From IMG/VR virus record IMGVR_UViG_3300017917_001229, positions 1-55,549 of that record: a stretch of 55,549 nt of DNA; one strand, given 5' to 3'. The notes under the pieces are model-generated. The model made no database searches and was not told where the DNA came from. It saw nothing but the letters and a program-made list of their open reading frames with translations. Shown here piece after piece: positions 1,894 to 13,274 of the stretch; within the stretch, counting starts at the first letter, position 1; each line of letters starts with the position of its first letter. The position numbers and the translations under genes were made by a program. The stretch is from a virus.

Positions 1894-3945
1894 ATGTTGA
1901 AAAAAATCCTGCTCAGTCCTTGGACTGCAATTATTACGTTGATACTGTTGCTGGTGATTCGCGCAATAGATCCTTCATTTGTAGAAAGTGTTCGCTTACG
2001 TTATTTTGATACTTTGATTGTCAACAAGGCGCCCACCCAAAACAACATTGTGACTGTGAACATCGACGAGGCAGCATTGGATCGTTATGGTCAGTGGCCA
2101 CTAGCACGTGGCGAATATGCCAACATTGTACACGATCTTTATCAGCGTGGTGCCGGGCTTGTGGTATTCAACGTGCTCATGCCTGAACAAGATCGAGCCA
2201 GACAAGATGGTCAATTGGCCGCTGTGATGAAACAGTTTCCTGTGATCCTGCCCAATGTACCTGCAGAACGCACAAAGAACACACCACGGCAACCAGGATC
2301 AGCTGTGATTGGTGCAGAGTTTCAAGATCGTGTGATTGTGTATCCAGGTTTGATTGCCAATACTCCCTTGTTGGAAAACAATGCCTACGGTGTGGGCACA
2401 ACCAACACATTGCCAGAAATAGACGGTGTCAATCGTCGTATGCCATTGGTTGTCAGCGTGGATGGCAGACTGTATCCTAGCTTGGCCATGGAAACGCTAC
2501 GTGCTGCCGCAGGTGATACCACATTCCAAGTCAAACTAAATGAGAATGGCGTTGAAAAAATGCGTATTCCCAAGTTTGGCCCTATAACAACAGATAACCT
2601 GGGTCGTGTGTGGATTGACTGGAGTCAACAAAGTCAAAGCTACAGTTTGACCAAATTACCAAAAGACCTTGGCGGAGCCATTGTCATAGTTGGTCCCAGT
2701 GCCGCAGGCATTGCCAATCCTGTGCCTACTAGCCGTGGCGCTGTATGGCCGCATGAAGTGCAGGCCGCTGTGGTTGCTACCATGACCAATGGTGTGGTCA
2801 TACAACGTCCTGACTGGGCAGATGGTGCGGAAATATTGATCATCTTGGCAGCAGGTGTTATACTATTATTTTTAACAAGGTGGATATATGCAGGTCTTGC
2901 ATCGGTTGTTGGTTTGGTTGTTATATTTGCATATGGCAGTCACTTTATGTTTGAGCATAGCCTTTGGCTATTTGACGCTTCCTTCGCAATCGCAGGAATT
3001 GTCCTTGTTGCGCTCCATGCTTATGGAATCAAATTTGTTGCAGAGTTCTTACAAAAGCAACAGATAAAGAAACAGTTTGGCACATACCTAAGCCCTGCCA
3101 TGGTTGAGAAGTTGCAGAAGAATCCTGAACTGTTGGCATTGGGTGGAGAAAGTCGTGAGCTGTCAATTATGTTTACAGATGTTCGCGGCTTTACTTCAAT
3201 ATCGGAACACTACGGCGACAACGTTCAGGGACTCACACAGATCATGAATCGTTATATGACTGCCATGACAGCACGTATTATAGAAAATCAAGGCACCTTG
3301 GACAAATACATCGGCGACGCACAAATGGCTTTTTGGAACGCACCGTTGGATGATCCAGAGCATGCTCGTCATGCTGTAGACACAGCTTTACAAATGTTAG
3401 GAGATTTAGATGCGTTTAATCAGAGCATTGCTCAAGAAGGTGTTCCACCTTTTGGAATGGGTCTTGGTATTAATACCGGGACTGTTGTTGTTGGGAATAT
3501 GGGCAGTGATCAGCGTTTCGATTACACTTGCCTTGGGGATAGCGTCAATCTTGCATCGCGACTTGAAGGCCAAAGTAAACCGTACGGTGTCAAGATCGTA
3601 CTGGGCTCGAAGACGGCGGAATATGTAAAGTCGGACTATCTAGTGTTGGAACTGGACTGTATTGCTGTCAAGGGCAAAACACAAGGTGTCAACATTTACA
3701 CAGTGTTAGGTCGCAGAGATCAAATGACTGTAGAACGCGGCGACGAACAAATGCACGCTGCTATGCTAGAACTGTATCGTCAGCAGAAGTTTGATCGAAC
3801 TATAAAGTTCTGTCAAGAATTGAAAGGCCGCTTCGGCGGTGAGATGGATCACTACTATGACGCTTGGATTGAGCGTTGCGAGGAGATGAAAGATGTTGAA
3901 CTACCAAGAGATTGGGATGGCGTTTTCCGAGCTACCAGTAAATAA
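1894..3945 (+). CDS. CHASE2-domain class III adenylate/guanylate cyclase
   Basis: 683 aa membrane-bound nucleotide cyclase. Order: TM helix about 11-26; periplasmic CHASE2 sensor about 30-300; three TM helices about 312-328, 333-350 and 362-379; cyclase domain about 420-600. The catalytic set looks intact. Metal-binding Asp429 lies in MFTDVRGFTS and Asp475 in KYIGDAQMAFWNAP. Lys471 and Thr545 (in RFDYTCLGD) are the substrate-specifying positions. Asn552 and Arg556 in VNLASRLEG are the transition-state pair. Lys plus Thr is typical of class IIIb enzymes that make cAMP. In bacteria CHASE2 cyclases often sit beside FecR-domain genes, and a FecR-domain gene lies 1.8 kb away here on the opposite strand. 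The ligand is unknown. Confidence 0.93.
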   Translation: MLKKILLSPWTAIITLILLLVIRAIDPSFVESVRLRYFDTLIVNKAPTQNNIVTVNIDEAALDRYGQWPLARGEYANIVHDLYQRGAGLVVFNVLMPEQDRARQDGQLAAVMKQFPVILPNVPAERTKNTPRQPGSAVIGAEFQDRVIVYPGLIANTPLLENNAYGVGTTNTLPEIDGVNRRMPLVVSVDGRLYPSLAMETLRAAAGDTTFQVKLNENGVEKMRIPKFGPITTDNLGRVWIDWSQQSQSYSLTKLPKDLGGAIVIVGPSAAGIANPVPTSRGAVWPHEVQAAVVATMTNGVVIQRPDWADGAEILIILAAGVILLFLTRWIYAGLASVVGLVVIFAYGSHFMFEHSLWLFDASFAIAGIVLVALHAYGIKFVAEFLQKQQIKKQFGTYLSPAMVEKLQKNPELLALGGESRELSIMFTDVRGFTSISEHYGDNVQGLTQIMNRYMTAMTARIIENQGTLDKYIGDAQMAFWNAPLDDPEHARHAVDTALQMLGDLDAFNQSIAQEGVPPFGMGLGINTGTVVVGNMGSDQRFDYTCLGDSVNLASRLEGQSKPYGVKIVLGSKTAEYVKSDYLVLELDCIAVKGKTQGVNIYTVLGRRDQMTVERGDEQMHAAMLELYRQQKFDRTIKFCQELKGRFGGEMDHYYDAWIERCEEMKDVELPRDWDGVFRATSK

Positions 3946-4090
3946 ATTTATGGACGAAATCGTCACAGCCAATGTATGGTTGTTTTTGAGCATGTGGTAT
4001 GCACCTTCTGTGCTGATGTCACATGGTGGCGATGTTGATCAATGGATCAGTAGATTCAGTCTCAACGGTGCCAAAAGCCTTTGTGGCTAA
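3893..4090 (+). CDS. Small ORF overlapping the cyclase end
   Basis: 65 aa in another frame, overlapping the cyclase by 53 nt. A good SD (GAGGAG, 7 nt before ATG 3893) lies inside the cyclase. A hydrophobic stretch VWLFLSMWYAPSVLM suggests membrane association. Its TAA (4088-4090) interlocks with the stop of the convergent gene (4087-4089), as expected for two packed real genes. No family recognised. Confidence 0.45.
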   Translation: MLNYQEIGMAFSELPVNKFMDEIVTANVWLFLSMWYAPSVLMSHGGDVDQWISRFSLNGAKSLCG

Positions 4091-4443
4091 ACTGCACCAT
4101 TGGTGTCCACATAGCTCCAACGATTGTTTGTACCATCCCAGTAGGCAATGCGTCCTGCATTGCCTGAACTATCGCTGACAGCAATTAGTTGTCCTACCGA
4201 ACCTGATATATTACCAGCTGCTGCTGAATCATAAGTTGGAACTAGTGCAACAGCAGGGCTCCAAACCTGAGTGAGATTTCCAGTGGCATTGCCAATGTAC
4301 ACATTGCTAGTGGTTTGATTGACCACAAACTCTGCAGGTCTAGCATTGCCATTGTAGTTAATTAAAGTTTCCTGAGCATTGTCTTTCATAACCGTGCGAC
4401 TGATGCCGGCAATGTCATCATATGGTGGAGGTGGGTTTGCCAT
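4087..4443 (-). CDS. Virion-associated hypothetical protein (fibre-like repeat)
   Basis: 118 aa, SD AAGGA before ATG 4443. The segment ARPAEFVVNQTTSNVYIGNATGNLT resembles the short N-terminal repeat of phage tail-fibre and whisker proteins (ARPGELVVD..NxYVGxATGNLT). A later portion has GRIAYWDGTNNRWSYVDTNG, a fibre-tip-like segment. Probably a small structural or receptor-contact protein. No enzyme motif seen. Confidence 0.5.
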   Translation of the reverse strand: MANPPPPYDDIAGISRTVMKDNAQETLINYNGNARPAEFVVNQTTSNVYIGNATGNLTQVWSPAVALVPTYDSAAAGNISGSVGQLIAVSDSSGNAGRIAYWDGTNNRWSYVDTNGAV

Positions 4444-4451
4444 GATTTATA

Positions 4452-4784
4452 TTATCCTTCCCCAGCTGATGCTGTTTTATCGTCTTCGGACTTGTCTTTT
4501 TTCATCACTTGTTTGTTGATTTCTGCTTCGGCTTCCACACGTTCGTATTCAATGGTCTTGCCACGTAGGTGTAGTACTGTGTTTACTTTTTGATTCAAAC
4601 GAATCAAGTCGTTGTCTAACATACGAATACGATCAATCAAGGCAATTAGCACTGTATTGGCTTCGCTGATAACTGGCTTTACTTCTTTGGTGCTCCATTC
4701 CCAAACATACTTGATAATGTAGCCCATGCCAACTGCCATGACGATTGGAAATCCATATTTGTTTATCAATGATACTACGTCCAT
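4452..4784 (-). CDS. Small membrane protein, paralogue of 5288-5569
   Basis: 110 aa starting at ATG 4784 after a strong SD (GGGAGAGAAG). The frame extends to 4847, but the internal start is far better placed. There is one N-terminal TM helix (YGFPIVMAVGMGYIIKYVW), then an amphipathic segment ALIDRIRMLDNDLIRLNQKVN and a charged tail. The pattern GFPI..A..GY, then A(L)xxR....D.IR...V...L.LR, is shared with 5288-5569. The layout suits a holin-like or membrane-anchored coiled-coil protein. Function unknown. Confidence 0.7.
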   Translation of the reverse strand: MDVVSLINKYGFPIVMAVGMGYIIKYVWEWSTKEVKPVISEANTVLIALIDRIRMLDNDLIRLNQKVNTVLHLRGKTIEYERVEAEAEINKQVMKKDKSEDDKTASAGEG

Positions 4785-4785
4785 A

Positions 4786-5019
4786 TTAACTTCTCTCCCA
4801 TCTTTTAATTGTGGTGTTATATAAATTTTTAACTGGGGTAGTTTCAAATTTCTTTCCTTGTTTGGCCAAGACCAAGTACATTTCTTTTTTGACTTGAACT
4901 ATGTCGTTGCGTTTTTTTAAATTAACTGGTAAAGTTGCTACTTTATACCAAACAATTCCAACACAAGTAATTAATACCCCTAATATAAATCCAGTTTTGT
5001 TTATCAATATCAGGTCCAT
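4786..5019 (-). CDS. Small single-TM protein
   Basis: 77 aa with an N-terminal TM helix (GFILGVLITCVGIVWY) and a basic C-terminal half. The end of the gene carries the SD for the next gene, which starts one base after the TAA. It sits between two related small membrane proteins and may be a diverged third copy. No family identified. Confidence 0.6.
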   Translation of the reverse strand: MDLILINKTGFILGVLITCVGIVWYKVATLPVNLKKRNDIVQVKKEMYLVLAKQGKKFETTPVKNLYNTTIKRWERS

Positions 5020-5021
5020 GA

Positions 5022-5288
5022 CTATCTACCTTTTTCAATAATTGACAACTTGTCAGCAAAGTCTCTGAGATCTTCTGACAACGTGCCTTTGCCTATGTTC
5101 TTTTCTATCAAGCGAGCTATGTCGTGTAATTGTATCACTGCATCGCGAAGTTCGTTGTTCATTGTGTTTTTTCCTGTTAAAAATTCCTGCAACTTTTTTG
5201 TTTTTACTTCTTCGTCGTGCTGTGCCATGTACATTTCAATGTATCTCTTTTGATTTTTAACATAGTACCGACGTTCTTCAGGAGTCAT
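5022..5288 (-). CDS. Conserved small phage protein, helical
   Basis: 88 aa. Its ATG overlaps the stop of the upstream gene at 5288, suggesting translational coupling. The N-terminal half is charged and helical. The C-terminal half NELRDAVIQLHDIARLIEK followed by GTLSEDLRDFADKL is a pattern I associate with small proteins of T4-like marine phages. An internal Met (MNNELRDAV) could give a shorter 46 aa product. Function unknown. Confidence 0.65.
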   Translation of the reverse strand: MTPEERRYYVKNQKRYIEMYMAQHDEEVKTKKLQEFLTGKNTMNNELRDAVIQLHDIARLIEKNIGKGTLSEDLRDFADKLSIIEKGR

Positions 5289-5569
5289 CAGTCACGTCTC
5301 GCATCGTTTTTGCCGTCGGCACGACTGATACGATCAACGTCAGGACGTAGACCCAGAGCATTTGATACCACTGTGTCAATTCTAATAACGTCGTGATTCA
5401 TGGTTTTGACACGATTGTCCAAGGCAGTGATAATACCGGCCATGCCTCGAATACTGCCCAATACACCTTGCAATAACAGTTTGATTGTGAGATATACAAA
5501 ATATCCACCTGCTAATGCCACTGCTATTGGAAATCCTAAATCACCAATGAGTTTGAATATTTCTCCCAT
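5288..5569 (-). CDS. Small membrane protein, paralogue of 4452-4784
   Basis: 93 aa, SD AAGGAG upstream of ATG 5569. N-terminal TM region (LGFPIAVALAGGYFVYLTIKLL), then ALDNRVKTMNHDVIRID and a tail rich in Asp and Arg. It shares the GFPI/GY/R..D.IR/LR framework with 4452-4784, indicating duplication. A late-type promoter (5602-5609) sits about 35 nt upstream. Possible lysis or membrane-remodelling accessory; unproven. Confidence 0.7.
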   Translation of the reverse strand: MGEIFKLIGDLGFPIAVALAGGYFVYLTIKLLLQGVLGSIRGMAGIITALDNRVKTMNHDVIRIDTVVSNALGLRPDVDRISRADGKNDARRD

Positions 5570-5601
5570 TTTAGCTCCTTATTATTATTATTTTATGTAG
5601 G

Positions 5602-5609
5602 TATTTATT
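5602..5609 (-). promoter_or_regulatory. Late promoter element AATAAATA
   Basis: Read on the minus strand, AATAAATA overlaps the stop of the 52-aa gene. It precedes an A/T-rich leader with SD AAGGAG for the membrane protein starting at 5569. It matches the T4-type late -10 core. Confidence 0.5.
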
Positions 5610-5763
5610 CGTTATCCGGCGGCCAAAAAGTCTCAGTATCATCTTCAACACCATTGGTGTCTTTGGTGTACTTGTGTTGATCTTCACGCTCGGTGCGTTG
5701 TTTTTCTTTACGGTGTTGTTCTGCAATATATTCGCTTAACAAACGTATGGTTTTACCGTCCAT
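5605..5763 (-). CDS. Small hypothetical protein, 52 aa
   Basis: Short gene found by translating the stretch between 5570 and 5771: ATG at 5763, TAA at 5605-5607. A good SD (AGGAGAT) lies 4 nt from the start, just after the FecR gene ends. The product is hydrophilic and charged (MDGKTIRLLSEYIAEQHRK at the N-terminus, WPPDNE at the end). No family recognised. Confidence 0.6.
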   Translation of the reverse strand: MDGKTIRLLSEYIAEQHRKEKQRTEREDQHKYTKDTNGVEDDTETFWPPDNE

Positions 5764-5771
5764 GGTATCTC

Positions 5772-6872
5772 CTATTTTTGTATAATAGTAATTATTGTCG
5801 ATCCACCGCGATTGACTTGCTGTGTCAGCGGCACTGAATCTTGATTGATATTCACTGTGACATCGGCTTCACGATCTATTGTGACTTGAGCAATGTGTGC
5901 GGTGGCTCTACGCAAAATCAACTTGGATTCATCATCACTGAAAAAATAAGTCAAACCCGAAGCCGCTGAATATCCTGGCAACATGGTTTTTTCACTCAGT
6001 ATGGCTTCTTGACTTTGTGCCAGTTGCTGATTGGAAAGATCCAACAAATTTACCAACAAATCAACATCTAAATAGTTGATGTCTAGTTCGCGATATTTTT
6101 TTAATTCATCTTCATCTAGGGCATTGTATTTCAACAAGTCCTGATTTAAGAAATTAATATCCAAGGCTGTCTTTGTGGTTTTTTCTTCTTCGTCACGACG
6201 TATTTCCGGCGGTGGACTCACAATCAACAAGTTGTTGATATTGGTTTGATCCACATTGACAATCACTGGTGGTGTGGGTGCCGCAGATGTTGATGCTACC
6301 ACAGTGGCTTGGTAAGCATGTTCTAACAACACTTCACCTGCGTCATTCTTAACTGAGATAGCACCTGTGACACAGCCACGGTTGTCACAGCTGGGCAACA
6401 ACACAATAAGACTGCGACCCAGTTCATCCACGGTCATAGAGAAATCTGTACCACGCACGGCCACTGTGGCAGTAGGTGTTTGTACATTGACGTTTTGCGG
6501 GTTGGTTTTGGCTATTTGTCCCGAAGCGTATCTGGCTGTGCCCAAGACCACTTTCATGGCCACTTTGCCAGAACCCTTTTTGGGATCGTATACAAAATCA
6601 TCTATGACCAGCTTGGATTGTTCAGTGATGTTTACTGTGGTATTGTCCTCAAATGTGAGCTTGGCCTTGGCCTTGGCTGTGACAATGGTGTCATTCATTT
6701 CCACAGGGGTATTAACCGACGAAGGCAGTGATTTTTTAGATCTCACAATCTCCGTCGGCCCTGTTTGTTCAGTCACACGGCCAACACTAGCCCAACTAGT
6801 CGGACTGAGTAATGTTGACAGTATTGCTATTGCCAGTGCTATTAACTGAAACAGTTTTTGCGGTAAGACCAC
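5772..6872 (-). CDS. FecR-domain periplasmic protein
   Basis: 366 aa, probable GTG start at 6872 with GGAG 9 nt upstream, overlapping the curlin gene by 77 nt. A signal peptide ends near SPTSWA. Residues about 30-150 form a FecR domain: variants of VxxxD.IxT...A.L.F.D.T.V.I...S.L.ID, then TPTATVAVRGTDFSM, the family's hallmark RGT segment. The C-terminal half is acidic with repeated ELDIN/LDINFLNQDLL motifs. FecR-domain proteins often act with CHASE2 cyclases or sigma regulators. Here it belongs to the curli-like operon and may sense or anchor at the envelope. Confidence 0.88.
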   Translation of the reverse strand: MVLPQKLFQLIALAIAILSTLLSPTSWASVGRVTEQTGPTEIVRSKKSLPSSVNTPVEMNDTIVTAKAKAKLTFEDNTTVNITEQSKLVIDDFVYDPKKGSGKVAMKVVLGTARYASGQIAKTNPQNVNVQTPTATVAVRGTDFSMTVDELGRSLIVLLPSCDNRGCVTGAISVKNDAGEVLLEHAYQATVVASTSAAPTPPVIVNVDQTNINNLLIVSPPPEIRRDEEEKTTKTALDINFLNQDLLKYNALDEDELKKYRELDINYLDVDLLVNLLDLSNQQLAQSQEAILSEKTMLPGYSAASGLTYFFSDDESKLILRRATAHIAQVTIDREADVTVNINQDSVPLTQQVNRGGSTIITIIQK

Positions 6873-7395
6873 TCTGTGTCACTCCAATGTTGTTCAAATT
6901 ACCTGTGGCTGTTATATTAACATTCGATGCACCACTGTTGGTACTGGTATGTGTCACAGTATTGGTGTTTCCTGTTATGTTAATTGTACTGGTATGGTTG
7001 GCTCCTGTACCTAGATTCTGTGTCACTGTGTTGTCATCACCTGAGATAACCTGTGTGATTGCACTGCCACTACAGCCTGCGCTGGCTGTGGTTCCGCAGT
7101 TGATTACACTTTGGTTGCCACTGCCTGTGACGTTTACCGTTGCACTTGCTGCCGCACCATTTAACACCATGGCCAAAGTATTGTTGCTGCCTACTTGGTC
7201 AATGGTCACAACGTTGGAACCGCCACCGATAAATGCTTCATTGCCTGTGCCAGAATCTCCAACTTTGTTTCCAGTTCCATCCTGTGTTATTGCTATGGTC
7301 GAACTGTCACCTACCTGCTCGATATAAACCTCATTGGCCCATGCTCCTCCCAAGCCAGCCAACATCATTGCGACTATTAAAATAGTTCTTTTCAT
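6796..7395 (-). CDS. Secreted curlin-repeat protein (CsgA/CsgB-like)
   Basis: 199 aa with a clear signal peptide (MKRTILIVAMMLAGLGGAWA). The mature part is rich in Ser, Thr, Asn, Gly and Gln. It has imperfect curlin-type repeats such as IEQVGDSSTIAITQDGTGN, VVTIDQVGSNNT and NTVTHTSTNSGASN. These fit beta-strand/turn units with Q, G and N ladders. Two Cys (INCG and AGCSG) bracket a short loop, unusual for CsgA. It overlaps csgG by 4 nt, so it would be made together with its likely secretion channel. Whether it forms amyloid fibres cannot be told from sequence. Confidence 0.82.
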   Translation of the reverse strand: MKRTILIVAMMLAGLGGAWANEVYIEQVGDSSTIAITQDGTGNKVGDSGTGNEAFIGGGSNVVTIDQVGSNNTLAMVLNGAAASATVNVTGSGNQSVINCGTTASAGCSGSAITQVISGDDNTVTQNLGTGANHTSTINITGNTNTVTHTSTNSGASNVNITATGNLNNIGVTQSGLTAKTVSVNSTGNSNTVNITQSD

Positions 7396-8174
7396 TTTTT
7401 ATCGCTTTGGAATCTCCAAAGCCCTTTCTTTTCCCCCTCAATGATCATTTCGTACACTGCCTGTTCAATGGCAACACGAACTGCATATGTGGTGGGTTCA
7501 TTTAATGCCGCGCCGGATTCTAGCTCAATACTACGAGTGTTTTGATCTACAAACCGTAAAACGCTGACATTGTGCTGAGTGCTGTAGATTGTTTTTGATA
7601 CAGCTACATTCAACAACACTTCACCTGACGAGATTGAAATTAGTCTGAGACTGATCACAATTTCGTCCACACGGTACTGCTGACTACCTCCGATGCCCAA
7701 AAATCTAGCACCGTTGCCTCCGGACCGTATATTGCTGTCGTAGCCAATGATACCCCCTTCTAGCATGACGCCGGCCACCGTGAGTGGCTTTAAGGGCTTG
7801 GCGTCTTTGCCCTCGTAAACTTCACGCTGATTGCGTATAAGTTGACGTTCTTTGATCAAGTTGTCTAGTCCCACACGTTCAACAACTCTGAACCATTTTT
7901 TTGAATCTTGCAAACTTTTGATTAAGAATACTTCCGAACCTTGTGTCACAGCACTGCTGAACAAGGCCAAGTTTGTGCTGGTTTTCTTTTGTCCAGTTAA
8001 ATCTTTGAACCCATACACAGCCACAGTCAAAGGAGGGCCATCCAACTCTGGTAGTTTGGCCAACAAGTTTTCTCTGGGTTTCAATGGCACAGGATCTTCT
8101 TGTGCCAAATGCATGTGTATTTGAGCACACCCTGATAATGCCAAAGCAAAGATGAAAATCAAAAATCTAGGCAT
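7392..8174 (-). CDS. csgG: CsgG-like curli secretion channel lipoprotein
   Basis: 260 aa, the usual CsgG length. An N-terminal signal with lipobox LSGC (residues 14-17) predicts an outer-membrane lipoprotein. Family segments seen: VAVYGFKDLTGQKK near the start of the mature domain, QDSKKWFRVVERVGLDNLIKERQ, then a YRVDEIVISLRLISISSGEV strand region. In E. coli nine CsgG subunits form the pore that exports curli subunits. The gene lies between the CsgF-like and curlin genes in one operon, overlapping both, which supports a working secretion set. Confidence 0.95.
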   Translation of the reverse strand: MPRFLIFIFALALSGCAQIHMHLAQEDPVPLKPRENLLAKLPELDGPPLTVAVYGFKDLTGQKKTSTNLALFSSAVTQGSEVFLIKSLQDSKKWFRVVERVGLDNLIKERQLIRNQREVYEGKDAKPLKPLTVAGVMLEGGIIGYDSNIRSGGNGARFLGIGGSQQYRVDEIVISLRLISISSGEVLLNVAVSKTIYSTQHNVSVLRFVDQNTRSIELESGAALNEPTTYAVRVAIEQAVYEMIIEGEKKGLWRFQSDKK

Positions 8175-8614
8175 CAGAACGCAAAACTCCCAATGGGCAC
8201 AGTGACAGTGGTTAATCCCCCGGTGGCTTCTCTAATGGTCAATGTGACATCGGTGCCGGTTTTGATCCAGCTGATATTGGTGCCTTGAAAATCCATTGCT
8301 CCTGAATTGGCACCATCGCTAAACATAGCATCTGCCAATTGCTTGGATAATTGTGCGTAGATACGACTCTCTACGTTGACCAAGAACTTGGCCAGGTTGG
8401 TATTTTTTGCATCTCTTGCAGCTTGATCTCGTGCTGCTTTGTCAGCATCGGCAATGGCCTTGCGACGGTTGGCTTCTAGTTGCTCAATGGTCAGCACATG
8501 GTTTGAATAACCACTGCCTGGTATAAATGCTGGCGATTGGAATTGATGCACCAGTGTGTCTGCACACACGGTGATTGAAAAACCAGCGAGAATTGTTATT
8601 ATTATAGTTTTCAT
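8174..8614 (-). CDS. csgF: CsgF-like curli assembly protein
   Basis: 146 aa from ATG 8614, chosen over the ATG at 8626 because GAGGG lies 6 nt before it. A signal peptide ends near TVCA. The mature N-terminus has VHQFQSPAFIPGSGYSNHVL, matching the FxNPxFGG-type start of CsgF that enters the CsgG pore. The C-terminal part (DVTLTIREATGGLTTVTVPIG) fits the CsgF beta domain. It is followed at once by csgG (overlap at 8174). An inserted Ala/Arg/Asp-rich helix about 45-80 makes it longer than E. coli CsgF. Confidence 0.85.
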   Translation of the reverse strand: MKTIIITILAGFSITVCADTLVHQFQSPAFIPGSGYSNHVLTIEQLEANRRKAIADADKAARDQAARDAKNTNLAKFLVNVESRIYAQLSKQLADAMFSDGANSGAMDFQGTNISWIKTGTDVTLTIREATGGLTTVTVPIGSFAF

Positions 8615-8667
8615 TCTAGCCCTCATTAATATTTAATAGGATCTAGAGCAAAAACTCTATAGGTAGT

Positions 8668-8910
8668 TTATGAAGGCAGGGGTAAACTTGCTAAAACTTT
8701 GATCAGTTGATTGGCAAATAACTTTTGCTCGTGATATTGAGCTTCATCTACAATGACTTGGGTTCTAACCAAATCTTCCAACAAGGCCTCATGTTCGTCA
8801 GGAGCTATTTGCTCTTGAGCTAATGCCTGATTGATTTCTTGTGCTCTTGCGGCAAGGTTGGCAATGCCAGCATAACCTGGCAACATACCGTACAGTGTTT
8901 CATAACTCAT
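8668..8910 (-). CDS. Hypothetical 80-aa helical protein
   Basis: 80 aa, SD AGGAGA before ATG 8910, overlapping the lipoprotein gene by 4 nt. Mostly helical and acidic, no signal peptide or TM. It lies between the lipoprotein and the csgFG genes, so a link to that module is possible but only by position. Confidence 0.6.
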   Translation of the reverse strand: MSYETLYGMLPGYAGIANLAARAQEINQALAQEQIAPDEHEALLEDLVRTQVIVDEAQYHEQKLFANQLIKVLASLPLPS

Positions 8911-9305
8911 CTTGGTCTCCTAGCATTGGTGCGCTGAATAATTTCTACTTGTGTGGCTATGTTTTTCAACCGTAGCTCACAAAAGACCTTGCTGGGAGGT
9001 TTTGCTGTGTCTTGATATCGCTTGGCAAAGTCGGCTGTGGTATTTTTTAATTCCACTGCCATTCGTTCCGCTGATTCATTGTTGGGTATATATTGAGTAT
9101 AGAACAACAACCATGTGGCATCACTGTCTATATTTTCTGCTTGATAACGAGCCGTTTTGGGATCACTACAGTGATTTTCCGTTTGTGCTTGATACACTCT
9201 GTGACGTATGTCAACCATGCGACTGTGTTCCACAGGGTCGAACTTTACAGCACAAGCTGTTAATACAAGGCTACTGACTACGAGCAGTTTTTTCAATAAT
9301 ACCAT
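8907..9305 (-). CDS. Small lipoprotein
   Basis: 132 aa from ATG 9305 (SD AGGAGA, 8 nt). The frame is open to 9344, but the internal start puts a signal peptide at the N-terminus. Signal MVLLKKLLVVSSLVLTAC has a lipobox LTAC, so the mature protein is lipid-anchored. Two further Cys in the mature part. It could be an outer-membrane accessory of the curli-like system or an o-spanin-type lysis protein. Neither is proven. Confidence 0.65.
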   Translation of the reverse strand: MVLLKKLLVVSSLVLTACAVKFDPVEHSRMVDIRHRVYQAQTENHCSDPKTARYQAENIDSDATWLLFYTQYIPNNESAERMAVELKNTTADFAKRYQDTAKPPSKVFCELRLKNIATQVEIIQRTNARRPR

Positions 9306-9639
9306 CGAACAATTCTCCTGGGTCTTGTTCAATATACTTAGCAATTCGTTGGTTCATTGTGGTGTAGTAGGTGTCCATTTCTGATCCCCAAAAACCCATT
9401 AGGTGCTCCAGAGCTTGTTCACAGTAGTTCCAATCACGTTTACGATAGTTGATCAACAAATTTTCGTGTAGATTACGCATACTTTCAACTCGAGGAAGAT
9501 TTTGTATGGGTATATTTTCCACTAGACAATATGCAGTGACTAGTTGTTCTACTGGTAATATTCTAAAAGTGTCTAATTCTAGTACTGTGTATTTTTCATC
9601 AACTTGGGGTAAATTTTCTTTGCCAAATATTATGTTCAT
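9271..9639 (-). CDS. Conserved phage hypothetical protein
   Basis: 122 aa from ATG 9639, preceded by AAGGAAA; the frame continues to 9669 without a better start. Segments VLELDTFRILP, TAYCLVENIPI, LPRVESMRNLHENL and RKRDWNYCEQALEHLMGFWG look strongly conserved, and I associate them with T4-like phages of marine hosts. Cytosolic, function unknown. Divergent from the phosphoesterase at 9664. Confidence 0.7.
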   Translation of the reverse strand: MNIIFGKENLPQVDEKYTVLELDTFRILPVEQLVTAYCLVENIPIQNLPRVESMRNLHENLLINYRKRDWNYCEQALEHLMGFWGSEMDTYYTTMNQRIAKYIEQDPGELFDGIIEKTARSQ

Positions 9640-9663
9640 TGTATTTCCTTTTAAATATGTATC

Positions 9664-10452
9664 ATGCAATTTAACTTTGATTTAATTTCTGACTTACACG
9701 TAGAAACCTGGGACAACTTTGATTGGTCTGATCAGGCCACCAGTCCATATTGTATAGTAGCCGGTGATGTGGCTCAAGATCGAGAAGTCTTGCGAGAAAC
9801 ACTGCATCATCTAGGCAAATGCTATCAAGGTGTTTTTTACATTGATGGCAACGATGAGCATAGGCACAGTCTAGACGATCTTGGCAACAGCTACCGATTT
9901 TTAAATCGCACTGTTGACGACATCAACGGTGTTGTGTATCTTCAGGACAACGTGATCATAATCAACGGCGTTGCTATACTTGCTACCAATGGTTGGTGGA
10001 GTTTTGACATGAATCCTGCCCTGGATTACGAACAAAGCCAACGTTGGTATCAAGAGCGAACTCAAACTATTTCTTCCACGGGTGATTCAATAACCGGATT
10101 AGCGTTCAATGACACAACCTACATGGTCAATAGTGTGCGCAAATTACAAACACATCAAGATGTACGCTCTATTGTGTTAGTCACACATACTGTGCCAGCG
10201 CCTTGGATCATAGAGCACGACATTGATTTGGTTGATACCTGGAGATTCAACTGCATGGGCAATCCTCACATGCAATTGGTCCTAAATGAAGATACCGAAG
10301 GTAAAATACACACCTGGTGTTTTGGGCACTATCACAAACCAGTGGATCGCGATCTAAATGGTGTACGCTATGTCAACAACTGTCGTGGACGAGGCAACAC
10401 TGAGTGGTCACAATGTGTGTACTACCCAAAACGTATCACTGTCGAATATTAA
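9664..10452 (+). CDS. Calcineurin-like metallophosphoesterase
   Basis: 262 aa. Metal-binding motifs in order: ISDLHVE (D-x-H), VAGDV (G-D), IDGNDEH (variant of GNHE), LVTHTVP (H) and FGHYHKP (GHxH). The family hydrolyses phosphomono- or diesters; the substrate here is unknown. It is one of the few plus-strand genes. TAAATA lies 6 nt before the ATG and no SD is seen, suggesting a leaderless message. Its TAA interlocks with the clpS stop (10449-10452). Confidence 0.85.
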   Translation: MQFNFDLISDLHVETWDNFDWSDQATSPYCIVAGDVAQDREVLRETLHHLGKCYQGVFYIDGNDEHRHSLDDLGNSYRFLNRTVDDINGVVYLQDNVIIINGVAILATNGWWSFDMNPALDYEQSQRWYQERTQTISSTGDSITGLAFNDTTYMVNSVRKLQTHQDVRSIVLVTHTVPAPWIIEHDIDLVDTWRFNCMGNPHMQLVLNEDTEGKIHTWCFGHYHKPVDRDLNGVRYVNNCRGRGNTEWSQCVYYPKRITVEY

Positions 10453-10757
10453 TCGCTTTCGGGCTCTAGCTTGACCTGCAATGGATAATTTTGGCTTCTA
10501 GCACAAACAGTGACTTCAATGCCTTTTTGTTCAGCCACTTCATAAGGCAACACTGCTACCACTGCTGAGCCTTCGTGATGAATGTCTTCAGTGATTTTCA
10601 TGGCTGTTTGTGTGTTGTAATTAAAAAAATCAATCAGGGTTTCAATAACAAATTCCATTGATGTTTGATTATCATTGAGATAGATAACCTTGAACATAGG
10701 TGGCTCCTTGAGAGCTTGGCTTGTTCTTGTTTTTGTGACTGTATCTGCGTTTGACAT
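10449..10757 (-). CDS. clpS: ClpS adaptor protein
   Basis: 102 aa from ATG 10757 (SD AAAGGAACCAGG); the open frame to 10799 would include the leader hairpin and is rejected. The core FKVIYLNDNQTSMEFVIETL, the HHEG segment and EVAEQKGIEVTVCARSQNYPL match ClpS. The NDN and HH positions are those that hold N-degron substrates and bind the Clp unfoldase. In hosts ClpS works with ClpA. In this phage it sits near its own ClpX. First gene behind a late promoter with a 5' hairpin. Confidence 0.93.
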   Translation of the reverse strand: MSNADTVTKTRTSQALKEPPMFKVIYLNDNQTSMEFVIETLIDFFNYNTQTAMKITEDIHHEGSAVVAVLPYEVAEQKGIEVTVCARSQNYPLQVKLEPESD

Positions 10758-10776
10758 CCTGGTTCCTTTGATTAAT

Positions 10777-10800
10777 AGTGGAGAGCGCATGCCCTCCACT
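10777..10800 (-). other. 5'-terminal hairpin of the clpS transcript
   Basis: Ten-base arms (AGTGGAGGGC / GCTCTCCACT, one G-U pair) close a 4-nt loop. The hairpin starts one base after the late -10 element, at the predicted transcript start, and lies upstream of the clpS SD. Confidence 0.7.
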
Positions 10801-10801
10801 G

Positions 10802-10808
10802 TATTTAC
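10802..10808 (-). promoter_or_regulatory. Late promoter element (GTAAATA) of clpS
   Basis: On the minus strand TAGTAAATA lies about 45 nt upstream of the clpS ATG and directly before a strong hairpin. Same layout as at hsp20, groES, the tail spike and the gene at 39435. Confidence 0.5.
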
Positions 10809-10817
10809 TACATTGTA

Positions 10818-11255
10818 TTAGTTTTCGTACGTGATTGCAATGGTCTTTGGCTTGGCTGAGTCCGGAACAATACGCTCTAACTTCACAGTTAGAATACCGT
10901 CCTTGGCAACAGCACTCTTGACTTCAACATAATCACCTAGACTGAATGTGCGAATAAACTTTCTAGCACTGATACCATGATGTCGTACTATATGACCTTC
11001 TGGTAATGTTTCAGATTTTTCTCCAGTGATAACAAGTTCGCCATCCTTGACAACAATTTCAATGTCGCCTTGGCTGAAGCCAGCAACAGCTACCTGTACT
11101 TCATAGGTATTCTCGCCAGTTTCTACAATGTTATATGGTGGGTAATTTGTTGATGCGGCATGATCAATTTGATTGACAATGCGATCAAAAAGTCTATCTA
11201 CGCCAATGGCATTGCGATAGAATGGTGATAGATCAAAAGCAGTGATTTTAGTCAT
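10818..11255 (-). CDS. Hsp20/alpha-crystallin small heat-shock protein
   Basis: 145 aa, SD AAGGAG before ATG 11255. N-terminus FDLSPFYRNAIGVDRLFDRI is IbpA-like. Alpha-crystallin domain about 35-130 with YEVQVAVAGFSQGDIEIVVKDGELVITGEK. The C-terminal IxI motif (IAI) is used for oligomer contact. It would hold unfolded proteins for refolding by the co-encoded GroEL/ES. Its leader (hairpin, CTTGCTTAATAAAGGAGAA) is nearly duplicated upstream of groES. Confidence 0.95.
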   Translation of the reverse strand: MTKITAFDLSPFYRNAIGVDRLFDRIVNQIDHAASTNYPPYNIVETGENTYEVQVAVAGFSQGDIEIVVKDGELVITGEKSETLPEGHIVRHHGISARKFIRTFSLGDYVEVKSAVAKDGILTVKLERIVPDSAKPKTIAITYEN

Positions 11256-11290
11256 TTAAGTTCTCCTTTATTAAGCAAGTTGACTATACA

Positions 11291-11318
11291 GTGTGGACCC
11301 GACCATCGGCATCCACAC
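11291..11318 (-). other. 5'-terminal hairpin of the hsp20 transcript
   Basis: Arms GTGTGGA/TCCACAC enclose a second stem CCGA/TCGG with a 3-nt loop. It lies between groEL and hsp20, just downstream of the late -10 element. No T-run follows on the minus strand, so it looks like a 5' leader structure rather than a terminator. Confidence 0.7.
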
Positions 11319-11321
11319 ATG

Positions 11322-11329
11322 TATTTATT
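11322..11329 (-). promoter_or_regulatory. Late promoter element (AATAAATA) of hsp20
   Basis: AATAAATA on the minus strand, 3 nt before the hairpin at 11318 and about 65 nt before the hsp20 start. Confidence 0.55.
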
Positions 11330-11345
11330 TCAGTACAATACTGAA

Positions 11346-12977
<1,632 letters not shown>

Positions 12978-13274
12978 TTACTCTCCTTTGTTTACAACTG
13001 CCATAACATCATCTTCGCGCATGATGAGATATTCTTGATCTTCAATTTTGACTTTCTGTCCTGCTGTCTTTGAAAACAGCACACGGTCTCCGGCTTGAAT
13101 GACCATGGGTACAATTCGACCATCAACATCAAGTTTGCCTGTGCCCACGGCCAACACATCACCCTGACTGGGTTTTTCTGCGGCGGCATCTGGGATTACA
13201 AGACCTGATTTTGTCACAGTCTCGGACTCAAGTACTTTGACCACTAGTCGGTCACGAATTGGTTTTAATTTCAT
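12978..13274 (-). CDS. groES: Co-chaperonin GroES
   Basis: 98 aa, usual length. MKLKPIRDRLVVKV at the N-terminus. The mobile-loop region (ETVTKSGLVIPDAAAEKPSQG) is present, as are the roof segment and the C-terminal DQEYLIMREDDVMAVV. A true GroES rather than a gp31-like replacement. With groEL it makes a complete phage-borne chaperonin. Upstream are a sigma70-type promoter with a palindrome in its spacer and, further out, a late promoter with a hairpin. Confidence 0.97.
   Translation of the reverse strand: MKLKPIRDRLVVKVLESETVTKSGLVIPDAAAEKPSQGDVLAVGTGKLDVDGRIVPMVIQAGDRVLFSKTAGQKVKIEDQEYLIMREDDVMAVVNKGE

Follow-up and report, generated by a model that had tools for sequence, protein, structure and literature searches.

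Why should a virus keep the genes of a curli secretion apparatus together with those of a FecR-domain protein and a CHASE2 adenylate cyclase? The question is raised by a 55,549-bp virus record of IMG/VR (IMGVR_UViG_3300017917_001229; the whole stretch is called the window below), in which a preliminary description made from the letters alone had recognized CsgG, CsgF, a curlin-repeat protein, a FecR-domain protein and a CHASE2 cyclase. A Pfam search of each protein found all five (Table 1), and the assignments of CsgF, CsgG, curlin, FecR, CHASE2 and cyclase all exceed the curated cut-offs. Two small membrane proteins encoded between FecR and the cyclase, here called m93 and m131, had been overlooked and are constant members of the same set. 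The interpretation favored here, to which we give a probability of about one half, is that these genes form a type VIII (curli) secretion module carried by the phage and equipped with a sensor of its own that links the envelope to cAMP.

Composition and linkage of the module

The CsgF, CsgG, curlin and FecR genes overlap end to start on one strand (8626 to 5772, minus), the curlin and FecR genes sharing 77 nt in different frames, and the cyclase gene lies 1.8 kb beyond FecR and is inverted relative to the operon. The overlapping operon with a cyclase nearby is thus as first described. The co-occurrence of the genes, which the preliminary description had left to be checked, was scored with hidden Markov models (HMMs) built from the phage proteins in FecR loci with sufficient flank, the counts being taken from the best 80 of at least 580 viral stretches matched in the FecR scan; a scan for CsgG yielded 46 loci in viruses. 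Curlin was present in 75/75 and CsgG in 68/68 loci, the cyclase in the downstream flank of 48/48 and m93/m131 in 32/32, and removal of near-copies left 65/65, 58/58, 39/39 and, for m93 or m131, 25/25. Conversely, T8SS (type VIII secretion system) genes were found in 43 and the cyclase in 44 of 45 loci identified with m131. The two m131 loci with no T8SS genes in range have identical m93/m131/cyclase coordinates; one of these contigs carries csgG about 20 kb away, and the second contig is a fragment of 41.5 kb. The genes therefore form one co-inherited set across related viral loci. Gene order is variable, and the cyclase may be inverted (in the window, L005, L029, L191, L204-L207, L216, L222, L234 and L262) or up to 7 kb off, but it was never lost from the scored FecR loci. 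That it is kept despite changes in orientation, spacing and order speaks for a functional connection and against passive inheritance of an operon. All module genes are under purifying selection in the relatives, with a median ratio of non-synonymous to synonymous substitution rates (dN/dS) of 0.05-0.16 (about 0.16 for CsgF and about 0.10 for CsgG).

Table 1. Features of the module in the window
Feature	Position	Strand	Evidence
CsgF homologue	8174-8626 (likelier start 8614)	minus	Pfam CsgF, E 1.2e-13
CsgG outer-membrane secretion channel	7392-8174	minus	Pfam CsgG, E 4.3e-51
Curlin-repeat protein, CsgA/B-like substrate	6796-7395	minus	Pfam Curlin_rpt, E 5.2e-07
Dual-frame region: last curlin repeat and FecR signal peptide	6796-6872	minus	sequence, 77 nt
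Secreted FecR-domain protein	5772-6872	minus	Pfam FecR, E 1.2e-11
m93, one hydrophobic N-terminal segment and polar helix	5288-5569	minus	phrog_18771, E 8.8e-30
m131, m93 paralogue	4452-4784 (frame opens at 4847, likely start 4784)	minus	phrog_18771, E 3e-29
CHASE2-class III adenylate cyclase	1894-3945	plus	Pfam CHASE2, E 3.6e-39; class III cyclase, E 1.6e-20
CHASE2 periplasmic sensor part, residues 15-323	1936-2862	plus	Pfam
Exchangeable catalytic cassette, about residue 390 to end, Thr/Asn type	3061-3945	plus	identity profiles, blastn breakpoint, trees

The window encodes phage replication proteins (a DnaB-type helicase, a primase, a UvsW-type helicase, ribonucleotide reductase and DNA ligase) and has a tail-spike match. 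Among named phages its DnaB is nearest to those of PA5oct (287 kb) and Atu_ph07 (490 kb), with which it shares about 48% identity, and it is 78-86% identical to the DnaB of six module-bearing viral contigs of 129-364 kb, including 80-83% for contigs of 317, 337, 349 and 364 kb. Because its DnaB resembles that of large module-bearing contigs, the window, itself 55.5 kb against the criterion of more than 200 kb for a jumbo phage, is most likely part of a jumbo phage. An identity as a pelagimyophage was rejected, as DnaB is nearest to PA5oct/Atu_ph07-type jumbo phages and unclassified jumbo contigs. A host-chromosome origin was likewise rejected on account of the virus record, the phage replication genes and the jumbo relatives, so the placing of these genes on a phage holds. 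Neither condition that the preliminary description named as refuting, a failure of the genes to co-occur in related phages or neighbors from a host chromosome, is borne out.

The secretion proteins retain recognizable features. In alignments CsgF has a signal peptide, an N-terminal F-x-x-P-x-F segment and a C-terminal beta region (its profile gave zero matches to PDB sequences at E 0.01), and the lipoprotein cysteine C16 of CsgG is invariant. The AlphaFold2 model of the curlin protein is a beta-solenoid with a predicted local distance difference test score (pLDDT) of 86.6; it matches the Escherichia coli CsgA fibril 8enq with Z 13.6 and 21% identity, and several unrelated solenoids score higher. 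Its CX7C pair, C100 and C108, is invariant across 18 aligned phage curlins, and a hairpin disulphide between the two may control folding or export. CsgG, CsgF and a curlin substrate are common to the window and the E. coli csgBA/csgDEFG genes, whereas FecR, the CHASE2 cyclase and m93/m131 are added in the window. The preliminary description suggested a complete module, which calls for qualification: the channel, its CsgF partner and the substrate are present, and no homologues of CsgE, CsgC or CsgD were found among the neighbors scanned with Pfam in a window that is a fragment. The three were also absent in the study by Wittmers et al. (PMC9599517), and according to earlier work cited in PMC7029224 secretion can do without CsgE.

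FecR, the cyclase and the small membrane proteins

The FecR protein consists of a signal peptide, a FecR domain (about residues 30-215), a Leu-Asp-rich linker and a C-terminal curlin-like tail that ends in an invariant Gln. Its model (pLDDT 69.8) shows a signal-peptide helix (2-21), the FecR domain, a low-confidence linker and a six-stranded tail. The modelled domain (57-215) superimposes on PupR 6ovk with Z 15.2 over 134 residues at 2.7 A and on 4m0n with Z 14.4; a profile search of PDB sequences returned chance matches only. The model lacks an anti-sigma domain and a transmembrane helix, the signal-peptide helix alone preceding the FecR domain, and the genes adjacent to FecR belong by Pfam to families other than FecI and FecA. 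A FecIRA-type role in iron regulation is unsupported because the anti-sigma part is missing, and FecR is better read as a secreted signalling domain without that part. The tail scores a median of 7.7 bits against the curlin HMM (shuffled sequences 0.9, 99th percentile 6.7) and its alignment falls on the final two repeats of curlin (hhalign probability 17%, P 0.0015), which suggests a curlin-like nature but does not prove it.

Support for a link between FecR and CHASE2 comes from bacteria. A survey of 190 alphaproteobacterial genomes yielded at least 25 FecR domains no more than 5 kb from a CHASE2 domain, where chance predicts about 0.65; the number is a lower bound, since at most 150 matches to each domain entered the comparison. 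FecR is upstream on the same strand in 19 of these pairs, one of which is the Caulobacteraceae curli operon described below. The pairing with CHASE2 cyclases has also been reported in Campylobacterota (PMC9239204). In these bacterial clusters the FecR gene stands beside the cyclase gene as in the module. The preliminary description had offered attachment, a block to superinfection and signalling from envelope to cAMP as possible roles, and the bacterial pairing strengthens the case for the last of these. The bacterial FecR differs in its lack of the curlin-like tail, which among 385 alphaproteobacterial genomes was found in one, namely that with the curli operon.

The catalytic residues of the cyclase are conserved. 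The metal-binding Asp pair (D429 and D475 in the window), the substrate Lys (K471) and the transition-state Arg (R556) are invariant in 96/96 sequences, while the other two positions (the Asp/Thr/Ser specificity position and that of the Asn) are Thr/Asn in 51 (including T545/N552 of the window), Ser/Asn in 2 and Asp/Ser in 43. Mapped on the CHASE2 tree, the catalytic type switches at least 15 times, and well-supported branches require at least 9 of these switches; mapped on the cyclase tree, it switches once. For the pair L019/L024, DNA identity is 88% across the CHASE2 half; the catalytic half finds almost no match, identity returns to 87% immediately downstream of it, and protein identity drops at about residue 390. 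The disagreement of the trees and this breakpoint indicate that the catalytic domain is swapped repeatedly as a cassette beneath the same CHASE2 sensor. The Asp/Ser motif was seen in 68 loci, every one viral or a phage-type contig in metagenome-assembled genomes (MAGs), and in 0/349 Pseudomonadota genomes and 0/50 bacterial cyclase motifs examined. The pattern holds without exception in a limited sample; a restriction of the Asp/Ser type to phages is therefore provisional.

The proteins m93 (93 residues) and m131 (about 110 residues, with a conserved LIDRIRMLDNDLIRL in the alignment) belong to the module in every viral FecR locus with long enough flanks, and the named phages with m93 are all module carriers. 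In HTVC008M and Melnitz they are encoded just upstream of csgF, the place where Wittmers et al. (PMC9599517) reported "a histidine kinase, sometimes two" in pelagiphage T8SS regions. By position, m93/m131 are probably those reported kinases. The reading as histidine kinases was rejected, since no HisKA or HATPase domain was detectable among Pfam matches up to E 10.

Related modules in phages and bacteria

The preliminary description mentioned CsgG and CsgF in pelagiphages, correctly, as csgFG was reported in pelagimyophages by Zaragoza-Solas et al. 2020 (PMC7029224). It further took curlin, FecR and the cyclase to be a new addition, which they are not: curlin, FecR, adenylate cyclase and the "histidine kinase" were described in pelagiphage T8SS regions by Wittmers et al. 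2022 (PMC9599517). In HTVC008M (NC_020484) and the Melnitz phages the order csgF-csgG-curlin-FecR-second curlin-cyclase lies on a single strand. The HTVC008M proteins are 48% (CsgG), 48% (FecR, over 64%) and 37% (cyclase) identical to those of the window; compared with the pelagiphage module the window is without the second curlin, its cyclase is inverted and m93/m131 lie between FecR and cyclase. Methylophilales phage Melnitz (MZ577097) shares the gene order, with all its module genes on one strand, and is 49% (CsgG), 39% (FecR) and 41% (cyclase) identical, with a cyclase of the Asp/Ser type rather than Thr/Asn. The Melnitz record annotates curlin-repeat genes, contrary to the absence of csgA/csgB stated in the corresponding paper (PMC9004378). 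Elsewhere, csg genes are known from one T4-like environmental genome (PMC7198788) and csgGF from viruses of sediments (PMC9636769); together with the pelagiphage papers these were all that a literature search on jumbo-phage curli and phage adenylate cyclases, covering few subscription papers and preprints, returned. The present study is thus not the first report of a T8SS, FecR and cyclase set. New findings are the probable jumbo-phage lineage, the total linkage of the set in loci with sufficient flank, two additional genes, a different reading of FecR, an operon in bacteria and the exchange of catalytic cassettes. An unverified 1.5 kb "Salmonella phage" record (L003, OR851715.1) encodes a CsgG 41% identical to that of the window; the match is probably contamination and was not used.

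According to Wittmers et al. (PMC9599517), FecR, cyclase and kinase do not occur within bacterial T8SS operons. Two of the 80 closest CsgG loci in genomes, on the Caulobacteraceae MAG contigs L055 and L056, have the order csgF-csgG-curlin-curlin-FecR-CHASE2 cyclase next to chromosomal genes (acyl-CoA dehydrogenase, amidohydrolase, cytochrome c554, S9 peptidase and glycosyltransferases). As these loci are chromosomal, FecR and the cyclase belong to the curli operon in some bacteria. The FecR of this operon is a full-length homologue of that of the window, tail included (36-37%); the operon differs in having two curlins before FecR and in the absence of m93/m131, and it represents a relative of a possible donor. 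Six other CsgG loci (L051-L054, L057 and L058) resemble phage contigs binned into MAGs, and four of them have m93/m131. The MAGs concerned are assigned to Rhodobacteraceae, Pirellulales, Flavobacteriaceae and Pelagibacter. Such mis-binned csgFG contigs could mislead trees of "bacterial" curli genes.

Several neighbors of the module have also been recorded. Consecutive genes for ClpS, a small heat-shock protein, GroEL and GroES occupy 10449-13274 of the window, and the small heat-shock protein and ClpS genes are upstream of csgF in many jumbo relatives. Small uncharacterised open reading frames (ORFs) at 8668-9669, between a metallophosphoesterase gene and csgF, are conserved chiefly in L005 and L029, the nearest relatives. 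A 118-aa ORF between m131 and the cyclase (4087-4443) has a weak RHS-repeat match as its sole match. Immediately before the cyclase is a large plus-strand ORF (282-1886, true start probably further downstream) that matched nothing in Pfam or PHROG; a similar gene adjoins the cyclase in L005 and L029. A promoter and terminator scan of the window was uninformative (40 promoters against 29.8 expected, 9 terminators against 12.3 expected).

What the module may do

In the secretion and sensing module proposed here, CsgG and CsgF would form an outer-membrane channel during infection and export the curlin-repeat protein, which would stack into amyloid-type fibers. FecR would be exported to the periplasm or the surface, where its domain, by analogy with the bacterial FecR-CHASE2 pairs, would contact the CHASE2 sensor of the inner-membrane cyclase as its ligand, while the curlin-like tail would couple FecR to fiber nucleation. 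With both roles combined, cyclase activity would report the state of secretion. No cyclic-nucleotide-binding protein was found in nine viral contigs of up to 364 kb, and for this reason cAMP is proposed to act through a host receptor. The likely benefit would be an altered surface of the infected cell, either a coat against competing phages or clumping. In favor of this proposal are the gene identities, their constant linkage, purifying selection, the conserved catalytic residues, the PupR-like FecR domain, the bacterial FecR-CHASE2 pairs, the chromosomal operon, the restriction of the tailed FecR to a curli context in the genomes searched and the CsgA-like curlin solenoid, whereas export, fiber formation, contact of FecR with CHASE2, the direction of signalling and the benefit are inferred. 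Several observations weigh against this proposal. The similarity between the FecR tail and curlin is weak and that part of the model is of low confidence; neither a CsgE-like gate nor a CsgC-like chaperone was found among the scanned neighbors, which leaves regulated secretion unproven; cultures infected with Melnitz showed no clumping (PMC9004378); and the FecR-CHASE2 complex is putative, as is the host cAMP receptor.

Extending a proposal of CsgG-triggered lysis by Buchholz et al. (PMC9004378), the module could be a lysis device in which CsgG is a gated outer-membrane pore and m93/m131 a holin-like inner-membrane pair that together depolarise and lyse the cell, with curlin and FecR as accessories. 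The constant linkage of m93/m131 fits this, as do their short hydrophobic segments followed by a polar helix and a weak match of m131 to the holin family phrog_4898, but that match is E 9e-4 over 20 residues, and the curlin substrate, the tailed FecR and the CHASE2 cyclase would be superfluous although they are strongly constrained and never missing, so lysis is unlikely to be the function. Quite unlikely is a pure signalling takeover, where cAMP would be the main product, reprogramming the host via CRP/Clr-type receptors, and the curli genes would provide the sensed structure only. Full conservation of the catalytic residues and repeated replacement of the catalytic domain under a retained sensor do suggest that cyclase output is itself under selection; against this, purifying selection acts as strongly on curlin and CsgF/G as on the cyclase, and the receptor is hypothetical. 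An uptake pore has been proposed for pelagiphages (PMC7029224; PMC9599517): CsgG without CsgE would stay open and admit siderophores, vitamins or other medium-size nutrients, with FecR sensing iron or ligand status. CsgE was indeed not found beside the module, but a FecR without anti-sigma part and with no FecI or FecA seen adjacent, the pairing of bacterial FecR-domain proteins with CHASE2 cyclases, and a curlin that is invariably present make uptake very unlikely.

Within the secretion and sensing module, it is tempting to speculate, with the odds against it, that the cyclase is a modular cyclic-nucleotide switch in which a CHASE2 sensor, coupled to curli secretion through the tailed FecR, is kept and two chemically distinct cassettes, one of them apparently phage-only, are repeatedly exchanged in a second-messenger arms race. 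If so, the Asp/Ser type may differ in product, in rate or in resistance to a counter-measure of the host or a rival phage. Curli genes in phages have so far passed for a curiosity of SAR11 phages that lacked an explanation. Jumbo phages carry the same indivisible set, and a proposed FecR-CHASE2 signalling pair with two small membrane proteins supplants the readings as "iron regulator" and "histidine kinase". The exchange of cassettes under a fixed sensor offers, through the two catalytic types, a testable handle on the role of the cyclase in infection.

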